From an uncultured Arenicella sp. (lineage in GTDB: Bacteria > Pseudomonadota > Gammaproteobacteria > Arenicellales > Arenicellaceae), in the NCBI GenBank assembly GCA_938048185.1, contig CALIVT010000024.1, positions 1 through 64,000 on the forward strand: a DNA stretch of 64,000 nucleotides, in the 5' to 3' direction. Both the position numbers and the translations under genes were made by a program. Below are positions 11,858-17,992 of this stretch, one piece after another (position 1 is the first letter of the stretch; each line of letters starts with the position of its first letter). The notes beneath the pieces are model-generated. The model saw only the letters and a list, made by a program, of their open reading frames with translations. It was not told the origin of the DNA and searched no databases.

Positions 11858-12220
11858 TCTTGTCGCCCCGCCATTTTAAATGGCGAACCTAATACGCAGA
11901 CCTATACACGGAACGTAAGTTGCGCCGACGACCGTCGGCACATACCATTTTTACCTCCCATTTAGCGATCAGGTGGTTACGCCATAAACCATTCGCTGCG
12001 CCGGACCTAGCCTATTACTGCGATACAAATCGTCAAATTTGGTACTTCGATGTCGTACTCCTGTCGCGAGCGTCGCCTAATCAGCACGGGGTTTTACTTT
12101 TAGAGCATACCTGGTTTGGTAGCACAGCAGTCAGCCCTGACGCTTATTAGGGTGTAGTGGCTGCGACCCTAATTAAGAAATTAATCAAGCAAGCCAGTTC
12201 TTATGACGGTGGTATTTATC
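11858..12220. other. 363-bp intergenic stretch with a palindrome
   Basis: 11869-11885 is a 17-bp palindrome (CGCCATTT-T-AAATGGCG), 12 bp after the receiver gene stop. It lacks a T-run and has too short a loop for a good hairpin, so it could be a protein-binding site or a weak terminator. A 76-codon frame at 11920-12150 has no protein-like features and was not called. Confidence 0.45.
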
Positions 12221-15723: not shown

Positions 15724-17856
15724 CTAAGCATAGGGCAGTTTGGCTTCCTGAAGCAAACACAGAAGGTGTGCGGTCGCCATCGCGTCATTGAGCGCGCGGT
15801 GGTGTCCAACTAAATCGATATCAAAGTGTTCACACAGCCGCCCCAAACTATACGAACTCAAGCCTGGAAACGTGGTTCGGCTATTGCGCACGGTGCAATA
15901 TTTCGGTTTTTTAAAGGGCTGTCCAAGTGCGCCGTAGGCCGCTTTGATAAATCCGTAGTCAAAGCCGACGTTGTGGGCAACGAAGATACAGCCGTTTAAC
16001 TGCTCGTTCAGTTCATCGGCAATTTCTGAAAATACGGGAGCACCAGCGACCATCGAATTATTAATACCAGTCAAGCGTGTAATGTGGGCGGGGATATGTC
16101 GTTGCGGGTTCAGCAGTGTTGACCATTGGCCGACAATCTTTTGTTTACGTACTTTTACCACCGCGATTTCAGTAATTGCATTACCGCCTTTGCGCCCCCC
16201 TGTGGTTTCTATGTCGACGACTGCATACGTTTGTTTGGGGTTTGTTGACCATTTTATTTGCGAGACATCGACAATGAAGCCTGCATCGCGCATACGGTTA
16301 ATGCTGACAAGTTGATTTGGACGCAGTACGTCGCCAGGTGCTTTGACCTCTTCAAACCTCAGTTGGCCGTTTTCAATTACCATTAGGTCAGGATAACCGT
16401 CGCGCGTGTGCCGATAGTTTTTTGCCATGCGATCCAATACTTTTGCTATCGCGCTGGGTGGGGAATATTGCAGAACGGTCTGCAATGTGCCGAGTAGTGT
16501 ATTCGACCAGCGGAAAATGCCGGTCGGTTTGCCGTAGTGCTTTACCACTAATTTAGCAAAGGTTTGAAACGCCTGATTGGGATGGTTGAGTAGTTGTAAT
16601 TTCTGCTCAATCAGAGACTTTTTATTGCGATAAAAAGTGTTGTTGTGCAGTTCGTTCGGTAATCGGTCAAATTCGCTGAATTGAGTCTGCTCAGCGCCAA
16701 ATAGTAAGTCCCAGAAAGTGAGTGCGAACAGTACTCGCCAAAGTTTGTTTTCGGTAAAGTAGGCGTCGACTCCGTGTCGCTGATAGTGCTGGATCACACC
16801 TTCTTCAACGTCGTTGATAAACGCCTCATCAATCGCTAGGGTGCGCGCTGACTCTCTGAGCATGTCGGTAAAGACGCTGGTACGTTTGCCTTGATATTTG
16901 CGCGCGTAAAAATCTTCGATAAACACCTTAGTAGCCGCAGGCAATTCCTCTTGGCGTAGGTTTTCTAATTCACGTGCAAGCTCGGCGCGGTCATGATTTT
17001 TGTATGATTCTCTAACCCATTTTTCGATTGCAGCTGGGTCGTTAGACGCGCGCCAAGTAGCGATAGCTTTACTTGCGTCATCAGCAAGTAATGCATTGCC
17101 AACACTGAGCAATAAGGTGTCGCGGATCTCCTGAGCGCTGTGGCCGATCGCTTGGTGTGTGATTAAATAATCAGCCACTTCGTCTTTTAGAGCCTCCGGT
17201 TGCTGCATAAAGTCGCGGCGCCGCTGTAGCAGTTCAAACGCACTTTGTGCTTCAAGCACGTTATCAAAACGAGCGACGGTTTTGGCGGTTTTTCGAGTTC
17301 TAAGAACGCCTAAGTCGCGCATGGCGAATTGTTGAAAACGGTTGCGTAAATCACCAAAGAAAAGAAAAAGTATATAGTCAACCGTCGCCGATTGGCGGCG
17401 CACGATAAATATTCTGTAGATGTCGTTTAAATGATCTTCATCGCCGCTTAAGTTTGCTAGGGCATGCTCCAGCAAAACGGCCTTACTGGACGATTTTTTA
17501 ACTGCGACCGGCGAGTAGGCCAAACATTCAACTAATTGTGGCTTGGTGAGCAGTGGTGCTAATTGCGGCCAATCACGCTTGGCTGCACTGCTGATATAAC
17601 CCTGGTTAGTGAGCTCGTGAATGGCCTGCGCTATGTTATCAATCTCTGGGTAGTTCAGAGTGTGCGCTTTAATGAACTTTGGTTTGCGCGCTAAACAGCG
17701 GACTAATAGACATTCAGCGTTCTCGCTTAGTTGAGAAATTCCATTTAAGTAGCCCAGCTGCTGCTCGTTTAATAGCGACGCACATTCGCTTTGCACGAAA
17801 CCAAACAGTTCACGCGCATGGGCTAGATAATATTTTTGTGGGAGCTGGGTCAACAT
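15724..17856 (-). CDS. FAN1-type VRR-NUC nuclease fused to a DEDDh 3'-5' exonuclease
   Basis: 710 aa from ATG 17856; upstream frame to 17979 lacks protein character. Residues 1-540 match bacterial FAN1 in layout: an N-terminal helical/wHTH part, a helical-repeat middle, and a VRR-NUC core with D490 (GYPDL) and E503-V-K505 (FEEVKAPGD, then a Gln). Residues about 544-704 are a DnaQ/PolC-like exonuclease: Exo I D548-I-E550 (VVDIETTGG), Exo II (VAHNVGFDYGF) and the DEDDh end (HHRALNDAMATAHLL). FAN1 enzymes unhook DNA interstrand crosslinks by cutting near 5' flaps. The fused exonuclease would add 3'-5' trimming. Standard bacterial FAN1 is about 560 aa and ends after VRR-NUC, so the fusion is notable. 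Confidence 0.85.
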   Translation of the reverse strand: MLTQLPQKYYLAHARELFGFVQSECASLLNEQQLGYLNGISQLSENAECLLVRCLARKPKFIKAHTLNYPEIDNIAQAIHELTNQGYISSAAKRDWPQLAPLLTKPQLVECLAYSPVAVKKSSSKAVLLEHALANLSGDEDHLNDIYRIFIVRRQSATVDYILFLFFGDLRNRFQQFAMRDLGVLRTRKTAKTVARFDNVLEAQSAFELLQRRRDFMQQPEALKDEVADYLITHQAIGHSAQEIRDTLLLSVGNALLADDASKAIATWRASNDPAAIEKWVRESYKNHDRAELARELENLRQEELPAATKVFIEDFYARKYQGKRTSVFTDMLRESARTLAIDEAFINDVEEGVIQHYQRHGVDAYFTENKLWRVLFALTFWDLLFGAEQTQFSEFDRLPNELHNNTFYRNKKSLIEQKLQLLNHPNQAFQTFAKLVVKHYGKPTGIFRWSNTLLGTLQTVLQYSPPSAIAKVLDRMAKNYRHTRDGYPDLMVIENGQLRFEEVKAPGDVLRPNQLVSINRMRDAGFIVDVSQIKWSTNPKQTYAVVDIETTGGRKGGNAITEIAVVKVRKQKIVGQWSTLLNPQRHIPAHITRLTGINNSMVAGAPVFSEIADELNEQLNGCIFVAHNVGFDYGFIKAAYGALGQPFKKPKYCTVRNSRTTFPGLSSYSLGRLCEHFDIDLVGHHRALNDAMATAHLLCLLQEAKLPYA

Positions 17857-17992
17857 GATGAAATTGAAATAGCTGTATTTAAAAACAGTATTCAATCTGA
17901 TCGATATTGTCAAGACCACGGCCCGATTGTTAAACCCAATCGCAAGACTTACACTGACGTGTGTTTGACTCTCACTCAAGAAGACTTAAATT

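Follow-up and report, generated by a model that had tools for sequence, protein, structure and literature searches.

A conserved FAN1 nuclease fused to a DEDDh exonuclease in Arenicella, Alteromonadaceae and Bradyrhizobium, with LexA-type boxes upstream of its gene

The window analysed here, a stretch of 64,000 nucleotides from an uncultured Arenicella sp. (contig CALIVT010000024.1, assembly GCA_938048185.1, positions 1 to 64,000), carries a gene in which a FAN1-type nuclease is joined to a DEDDh 3'-5' exonuclease. The gene lies on the minus strand (15724..17856) as a single coding sequence including its stop, with the ATG at 17856, the stop codon ending at 15724 and a frame of 710 amino acids (aa) free of internal stops; read on the plus strand, the same interval contains many stops. 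From the N-terminus, and all on the minus strand, the protein comprises a FAN1_HTH domain (residues 9-88, 17593..17832; Pfam PF21315, E 4.3e-17, 62.2 bits against a cut-off of 27), which was also recovered by a genome search, a VRR-NUC nuclease domain (residues 438-533, 16258..16545; PF08774, E 3.1e-12, 47 bits against a cut-off of 23.8), a junction of fixed length (residues 534-545, 16222..16257) and a DEDDh 3'-5' exonuclease domain (residues 546-698, 15763..16221; PF00929, RNase_T, E 1.6e-31). The VRR-NUC domain is thus not the C-terminus of the protein, the exonuclease coming after it.

An earlier sequence-only reading of this DNA had described a FAN1-type nuclease and a DnaQ-like exonuclease in one protein, and the Pfam matches bear this out, with FAN1_HTH, VRR_NUC and RNase_T each scoring above the curated cut-off. 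That reading had also allowed for a missed stop or frameshift joining two genes, and for failure of the VRR-NUC profile to match; the frame is single and open, and the profile matches above its cut-off. When named genomes were scanned with only the FAN1 part, 79 loci came up; 78 have the fused frame open and the other (L028) is cut by a contig end, so a frameshift or two-gene artefact was rejected. The FAN1-exonuclease fusion is a real single protein, not a product of frameshift or assembly. FAN1_HTH was matched in all 57 members of an alignment of fused proteins (A4), a SAP domain in two of the 57 at E <= 0.01 and TPR_12 in one, and the 710-aa protein itself has no TPR match in Pfam. Helicase, GIY-YIG and PAAR domains gave no Pfam match up to E 1 in the 710-aa protein, the N-terminus of which is FAN1_HTH.

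Both active sites are conserved across the fused proteins. The VRR-NUC residues D490, E503 and K505 stand at the positions given in the sequence-only reading, and the full DEDDh set that it had reported as visible was located at D548, E550, D633, H686 and D691 (positions from motif offsets). E369, which sits before the Pfam VRR_NUC match, aligns with a conserved glutamate of FAN1 proteins. Thirteen residues (E369, N370, D490, E503, K505, Q515, Y544, D548, H628, N629, D633, H686 and D691) show no variation across the 92 fused proteins, and E550 is retained by 91, the exception being one Bradyrhizobium-type copy. K505 and D548 are 43 residues apart in all 92 (and in 79 of 79 in an earlier set), and since this spacing is constant no net insertion or deletion is seen at the junction even between gammaproteobacterial and Bradyrhizobium-type proteins. 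Within the junction Y544 is present in all 92 proteins, and P540 and Q542 in 90 each. Mean column identity in 13-row alignments of the genus was 76% for the exonuclease part versus 59% for the FAN1 part, and a decaying exonuclease domain would not be expected to show such conservation. A pattern search of the 92 fused proteins for a beta-clamp motif gave scattered matches only, with no more than two of the 92 at any one place. The exceptional copy (L198, from the Bradyrhizobium-like genome G888) has DIG instead of DIE in the first exonuclease motif and intact FAN1 residues; its exonuclease activity has probably been lost.

A structure model built from 57 fused sequences is confident (mean pLDDT 92.1, pTM 0.85) and places helices between E369 and the strand at residues 491-495 of the FAN1 part. 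Residues 3-537 match the Pseudomonas enzyme PaFAN1 (5y7g; Z 27.8, rmsd 3.9, 525 aligned residues, 22% identity), and residues 539-708 match the exonuclease of Staphylococcus aureus DinG (9ii8; Z 26.3, rmsd 1.6, 169 aligned, 36% identity). The match of the exonuclease to E. coli epsilon (2gui; Z 23.7, 30% identity) is less close in sequence than that to DinG. A sequence search of solved structures likewise gave S. aureus DinG as the best match of the exonuclease, followed by PolC, the remaining matches being PaFAN1 and human FAN1. The placement of the exonuclease domain among DEDDh families was made by profile and fold scores. Its best NCBIfam score was with the PRK07883-type model NF005906 (172 bits, far under the family cut-off of 495, over model positions 6-167 of 563); the DinG-type model TIGR01407 gave 164 bits (against a cut-off of 547.7, exonuclease part only) and proteobacterial DnaQ 80 bits. 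The PRK07883 group is one we take to be the mycobacterial Cho-like GIY-YIG/epsilon-like exonuclease proteins.

The closest known systems share parts of this architecture and differ in others. PaFAN1 (PDB 4r89, 4r8a, 5y7g and 5y7q) shares the fold of residues 3-537, sequence matches at both ends and the catalytic residues, but is 559 aa long and ends after VRR-NUC, whereas the window protein adds an exonuclease of about 165 residues directly after it. The mycobacterial Cho-like fusion also combines an endonuclease and a 3'-5' exonuclease in one protein, but its endonuclease is of the GIY-YIG rather than the VRR-NUC kind, and the NCBIfam model has its exonuclease at the N-terminal end. In S. aureus DinG the DEDDh exonuclease is likewise fused to a repair enzyme, but there it is N-terminal and its partner is an SF2 helicase (PMC12345164; this and the other papers cited by PMC number are drawn on in excerpt), whereas in the window protein it is C-terminal and its partner is FAN1. 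MrfB of Bacillus subtilis, a DEDDh 3'-5' exonuclease in mitomycin C repair (PMC10889028), is a stand-alone protein named with a helicase partner, MrfA, and is not fused to a nuclease.

FAN1 proteins process 5' flaps. The Pseudomonas enzyme makes its cuts 4 and 5 bp beyond the branch point and, once the first cut is made, has some 5'-3' exonuclease activity, as do the human and mouse enzymes (PMC4103454); the PaFAN1 crystal entries 5y7g and 5y7q are, by their titles, bound to a 5' flap with a gap. On balance, we consider that the fused protein is probably an SOS-induced crosslink- or flap-repair enzyme in which the exonuclease would trim 3' ends beside the FAN1 incision. In the proposed sequence of events, DNA damage that stalls replication, above all interstrand crosslinks, would inactivate LexA and induce the gene, and the FAN1 body would bind the fork, gapped or with a 5' flap. 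At a short and constant distance from it, the exonuclease would trim the adjacent 3' end, producing both a gap for FAN1 and a clean primer for repair synthesis, and the VRR-NUC domain would then cut the 5' strand beyond the lesion. Precedents by analogy for such trimming may be found in DinG of S. aureus, the exonuclease activity of which is required for mitomycin C and formaldehyde resistance (PMC12345164), in MrfB, and in the exonuclease fused to a Cho-like GIY-YIG nuclease, for which digestion of the damaged strand from the incision has been proposed (PMC1564403). The sequence-only reading had likewise pictured a two-nuclease repair machine; the conserved active sites, the junction of fixed length and the LexA-type boxes described below agree with that picture, in which both nuclease activities are predicted.

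DEDDh exonucleases related to DnaQ and epsilon act in editing, and the same exonuclease activity could instead serve after FAN1 has finished, digesting unhooked oligonucleotides or proofreading for SOS polymerases outside the incision step. This role of its relatives, together with DinB-type polymerase frames beside three of seven Bradyrhizobium-type fused genes, favours such a clean-up or editing function, which would involve an activity identical to that in the incision-coupled scheme and differ from it in timing alone. The constant junction length in 92 of 92 proteins argues in the other direction, since a linker that never varies suggests a fixed geometry with VRR-NUC and not a loosely tethered editor, and the exonuclease scores nearer to PRK07883-type and DinG-type models (172 and 164 bits) than to proteobacterial DnaQ (80). 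We regard a post-incision editor as rather unlikely, though it keeps some weight.

A LexA-box-like operator (17873..17888, no strand assigned; CTGTTTTTAAATACAG in the minus-strand reading) lies 16 nt before the ATG of the fused gene and is a perfect match to CTGTN8ACAG. It overlaps the hexamer TACTGT (17890-17885), which is preceded at 17 nt by a -35-like TTGACA (17908..17913, minus strand). A strong promoter at this place was considered and rejected: TTGACA is perfect, but TACTGT fits TATAAT at three of six positions only and a promoter scan did not call the pair. The 64-kb window contains one CTGTN8ACAG match against a mean of 0.63 in shuffled sequence, which is not rare alone, and the case for an SOS box is one of placement and recurrence. 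In the genome of the window, four of the perfect sites with an A/T-rich core immediately precede a gene: the one before recA is 42 nt away, those before the fused gene and a tyrosine recombinase are 16 nt away, and the one before a type IA topoisomerase is 13 nt away. Downstream of a fifth such site, near 4241 of contig C5, no frame of at least 100 aa starts within 400 nt. A one-mismatch box lies 21 nt upstream of the lexA start in the same genome.

The box recurs in front of related genes. Within 150 nt upstream of the 79 gammaproteobacterial fused genes, many of them from strains that are close relatives and not independent, a LexA-type box with at most one mismatch was found in 65 cases and a perfect one in 23, compared with 129 of 3333 (3.9%) and 8 of 3333 control windows in the flanks of the same loci; two rearranged control motifs occurred before one and three of the 79 genes. 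In a wider region (250 nt upstream and 30 nt of the gene) a box was present in 86 of 101 fused regions, some of which are probably the same genomes under two names, versus 3 of 22 unfused ones, in lineages where LexA boxes may differ, and in 8.7% of mononucleotide shuffles. Alphaproteobacteria have a LexA box of a different kind, GTTCN7GTTC, with GAACN7GAAC as its complement. In seven Bradyrhizobium-type loci (about 51 kb) the pattern GAACN7GAAC or its complement occurs eight times, and seven of these occurrences are accounted for by one site immediately upstream of each fused gene. Neighbours of these Bradyrhizobium-type genes include SRAP/YedK in two of seven loci and the DinB-type polymerase frames already mentioned, two of which are partial in the stretches examined. 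The motif evidence for SOS control of FAN1-exonuclease proteins is new here, and binding of LexA to these boxes is predicted from it.

SOS boxes indicate DNA damage in general and not crosslinks, and this, with the 5'-flap activity of FAN1 proteins including the Pseudomonas one (PMC4103454), would also suit a general SOS processor of forks and recombination intermediates (5' flaps, 3' flaps and reversed forks) that is not a crosslink-repair enzyme. A UV study reports that PA1865, described there as a gene for unhooking interstrand crosslinks, responds to UV-C and to ciprofloxacin with induction and to hydrogen peroxide with repression (PMC12796719), which fits the same idea. Against this, the nearest solved match of the exonuclease contributes to the resistance of S. 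aureus to crosslinks (PMC12345164), and MrfB, a DEDDh enzyme of B. subtilis, takes part in mitomycin C repair (PMC10889028). A general processor with no crosslink role appears improbable to us, and repair of crosslinks and flaps remains the preferred function.

The protein is a member of a widespread fused clade. Full-length fused frames were found in 12 other genomes of the genus Arenicella, with a 13th cut by a contig end, and a FAN1 match was absent from 4 of 17 same-genus genomes searched with the full protein and then with the FAN1 part alone. One candidate in the genus (G003), a weak match from residue 498, was rejected: the frame there, at a contig end, has an exonuclease-like match alone and no FAN1. 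In 23 genomes of other genera of the same family or order, 22 match only in or around the exonuclease part and one has no match, and a query with the FAN1 part only, which finds FAN1 elsewhere, found none in these 23 and the four same-genus genomes (0 of 27). The named-genome scan used patterns derived from fused proteins and kept the best 80 of 94 confirmed matches, which biases it towards close fused relatives; its fused loci come from Arenicella, Alteromonas, Paraglaciecola, Aliiglaciecola, Aestuariibacter, Salinimonas, Opacimonas, Glaciecola, Pseudoalteromonas, Aliidiomarina and Idiomarina, an Oceanospirillaceae metagenome-assembled genome (MAG) and MAGs named at higher rank only. A fused clade exists that spans Arenicella, Alteromonadaceae, Pseudoalteromonas, Idiomarinaceae and Bradyrhizobium.

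Broader samples show how common the fusion is among FAN1 proteins. FAN1 was found in 20 of 369 genomes of a class sample, of which 5 are fused (including the genome of the window and one split by an inserted element) and 14 were examined and are unfused, one weak match (G359) being left aside in this classification. In an order sample around the genome G386, FAN1 was found in 74 of 394 genomes, 22 with the exonuclease and 52 without it, 13 of the latter by inspection and 39 from the length of their open frames, which is no more than 598 aa. A phylum sample searched with FAN1_HTH gave 55 matches in 398 genomes: 11 are of the fused kind, all confirmed and 4 of them from genomes of other classes, and the remaining 44 have open frames of no more than 687 aa, the two longest of which were inspected and are unfused. 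Close relatives of the four other-class fused genomes are on named Bradyrhizobium plasmid records, and from this grouping we infer that the four are Alphaproteobacteria. The sequence-only reading had held that bacterial FAN1 proteins end after VRR-NUC; this is true of most of those sampled (52 of 74 in the order sample) but not of the large fused clade, and the window protein is therefore one member of a clade and not a singleton.

Other candidates for long or fused architectures were rejected. Long frames among the unfused FAN1 hits (L173, G741, G961, G498, G684, G756 and G428) are all FAN1 without an exonuclease. Three tblastn hits in gut phages and Subdoligranulum (H14, H16 and H17), in which one alignment piece ran into both the VRR-NUC and the exonuclease domain, are PolC-type DNA polymerase III; their frames of 1435-1464 aa carry PHP, exonuclease and DNA_pol3_alpha domains in Pfam, so that the VRR-NUC alignment is spurious. 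Three annotated examples of the fused protein (one Pseudoalteromonas and two Bradyrhizobium) are labelled 'exonuclease domain-containing protein' in RefSeq, and one of them is shortened. On a B. japonicum plasmid (L190, 4968-7145) the annotated start of QIH95_RS48005 (5544) falls 576 nt into the fused frame; a protein annotated from there would be without FAN1_HTH. In the Alteromonas-like genome G386 (contig C4, 3196500-3202500; L200) an insertion with a transposase-like frame (Pfam rve) splits the fused gene and leaves the HTH part in a separate frame, and the Bradyrhizobium-like genome G823 carries two intact fused copies (L194 and L195) on one contig.

Trees of the FAN1 part, made by quick searches and containing long branches, placed the fused proteins on one side of a branch in both sets examined (42 fused and 21 unfused, SH-aLRT 100; 40 fused, including seven of Bradyrhizobium type, and 18 unfused, SH-aLRT 99). 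Since all fused proteins fall on one side, the simplest reading is a single fusion event, in which a FAN1 nuclease would have gained a C-terminal DEDDh 3'-5' exonuclease, followed by transfers. Arenicella-type sequences nest within those of Alteromonadales, and those of Bradyrhizobium type group together within the fused set as a single clade (SH-aLRT 100), a nesting that suggests horizontal transfer to both. The deep forks that bear on transfer have SH-aLRT values of 36-99 in the first tree and 44-97 in the second, and given this support the transfer into Arenicella from Alteromonadales is likely only. An unfused FAN1 of the genome G109 (L105/L199) scored 277 bits against a profile of the fused clade, the highest of the unfused proteins examined, and sits on a long branch beside the clade; it may be the nearest unfused relative.

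Two of the Bradyrhizobium copies are on plasmids typed as conjugative, and VRR-NUC domains occur in phages (PMC4103454) and in type VI secretion system (T6SS) effectors (PMC9635880), as would suit a nuclease of mobile elements or of defence that is directed against foreign DNA. Three PADLOC models also match the exonuclease part (PDC-S48 twice and a CRISPR-associated DEDDh model). The PDC-S48 matches are partial (4-165 of 411 and 17-183 of 512) and confined to the exonuclease part, and the FAN1 part has no PADLOC match at E <= 0.001. A tblastn search of 50,697 phage records found none covering 80% of the window protein. With a FAN1 fold match over residues 3-537, LexA-type boxes that fit a repair gene and no PAAR domain in Pfam, a defence nuclease is very improbable indeed, and a repair function is preferred.

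Several observations nevertheless weigh against an SOS-induced crosslink-repair enzyme. CTGTN8ACAG is not enriched across the 3.12-Mb genome, which has 11 perfect sites compared with 22 for the backwards pattern; 14 of the 79 gammaproteobacterial fused genes have no box in the 150 nt upstream; the relatedness of the 79 strains lowers the value of the recurrence; and LexA control of the fused gene is read from motifs. The gene seems dispensable in Arenicella, given the four genomes of 17 without FAN1. The FANC_SAP match of the 710-aa protein (E 0.038) is under the Pfam cut-off, PADLOC places the exonuclease part under a candidate defence system, and the exonuclease glutamate E550 has been lost in one Bradyrhizobium-type copy. 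The two nucleases might also act on separate substrates.

More tentatively, the two nucleases could work as one coupled unit. Trimming of the 3' end would then produce the gapped 5'-flap on which FAN1 acts, so that one SOS-induced polypeptide would make both gap ends at an interstrand crosslink, and the unit would spread as a self-contained crosslink-repair cassette taking on the LexA operator of each new host class. This extended form of the proposal is possible but doubtful.

The fused protein is a conserved variant of FAN1, undescribed as far as was searched, in which both domains are familiar, and not a new kind of system. No description of a FAN1-exonuclease fusion was found in the openly licensed literature searched, and absence beyond that is not proven. 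According to excerpts of the literature, human FAN1 is important both in crosslink repair and in the CAG-repeat expansion of Huntington's disease, and a bacterial FAN1 has already been solved with DNA (the PaFAN1 entries). A FAN1 that naturally carries another nuclease, opposite in polarity and set at a constant distance, could reveal which 3' end has to be processed for FAN1, and the fused protein, as an enzyme that already unites two nucleases, lends itself to crystallography and assays. With two kinds of LexA-type box upstream of the fused genes, a role in DNA damage would be easy to test in vivo. Together with the DinG and GIY-YIG fusions, this protein suggests repeated attachment of related DEDDh modules to enzymes of crosslink or excision repair.

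The surroundings of the gene are weakly conserved in Gammaproteobacteria. Among 78 named loci, the neighbouring Na+/H+ antiporter (14198) recurs in four, the alpha/beta hydrolase (17993) in one and the M49 peptidase (19054) in two (all named from Pfam), and the protein at 12203 recurs in none. Elsewhere in the genome, the perfect box before the tyrosine recombinase (L170; contig C29, 77818-77833) stands 16 nt from a 328-aa protein with Phage_integrase and SAM-like domains, which looks like an integron integrase and is followed by a PHP-domain (DnaE-like) frame. The perfect box 13 nt before the type IA topoisomerase (L172) is at 17579-17594 of contig C36, and SOS control of that gene would be unexpected.

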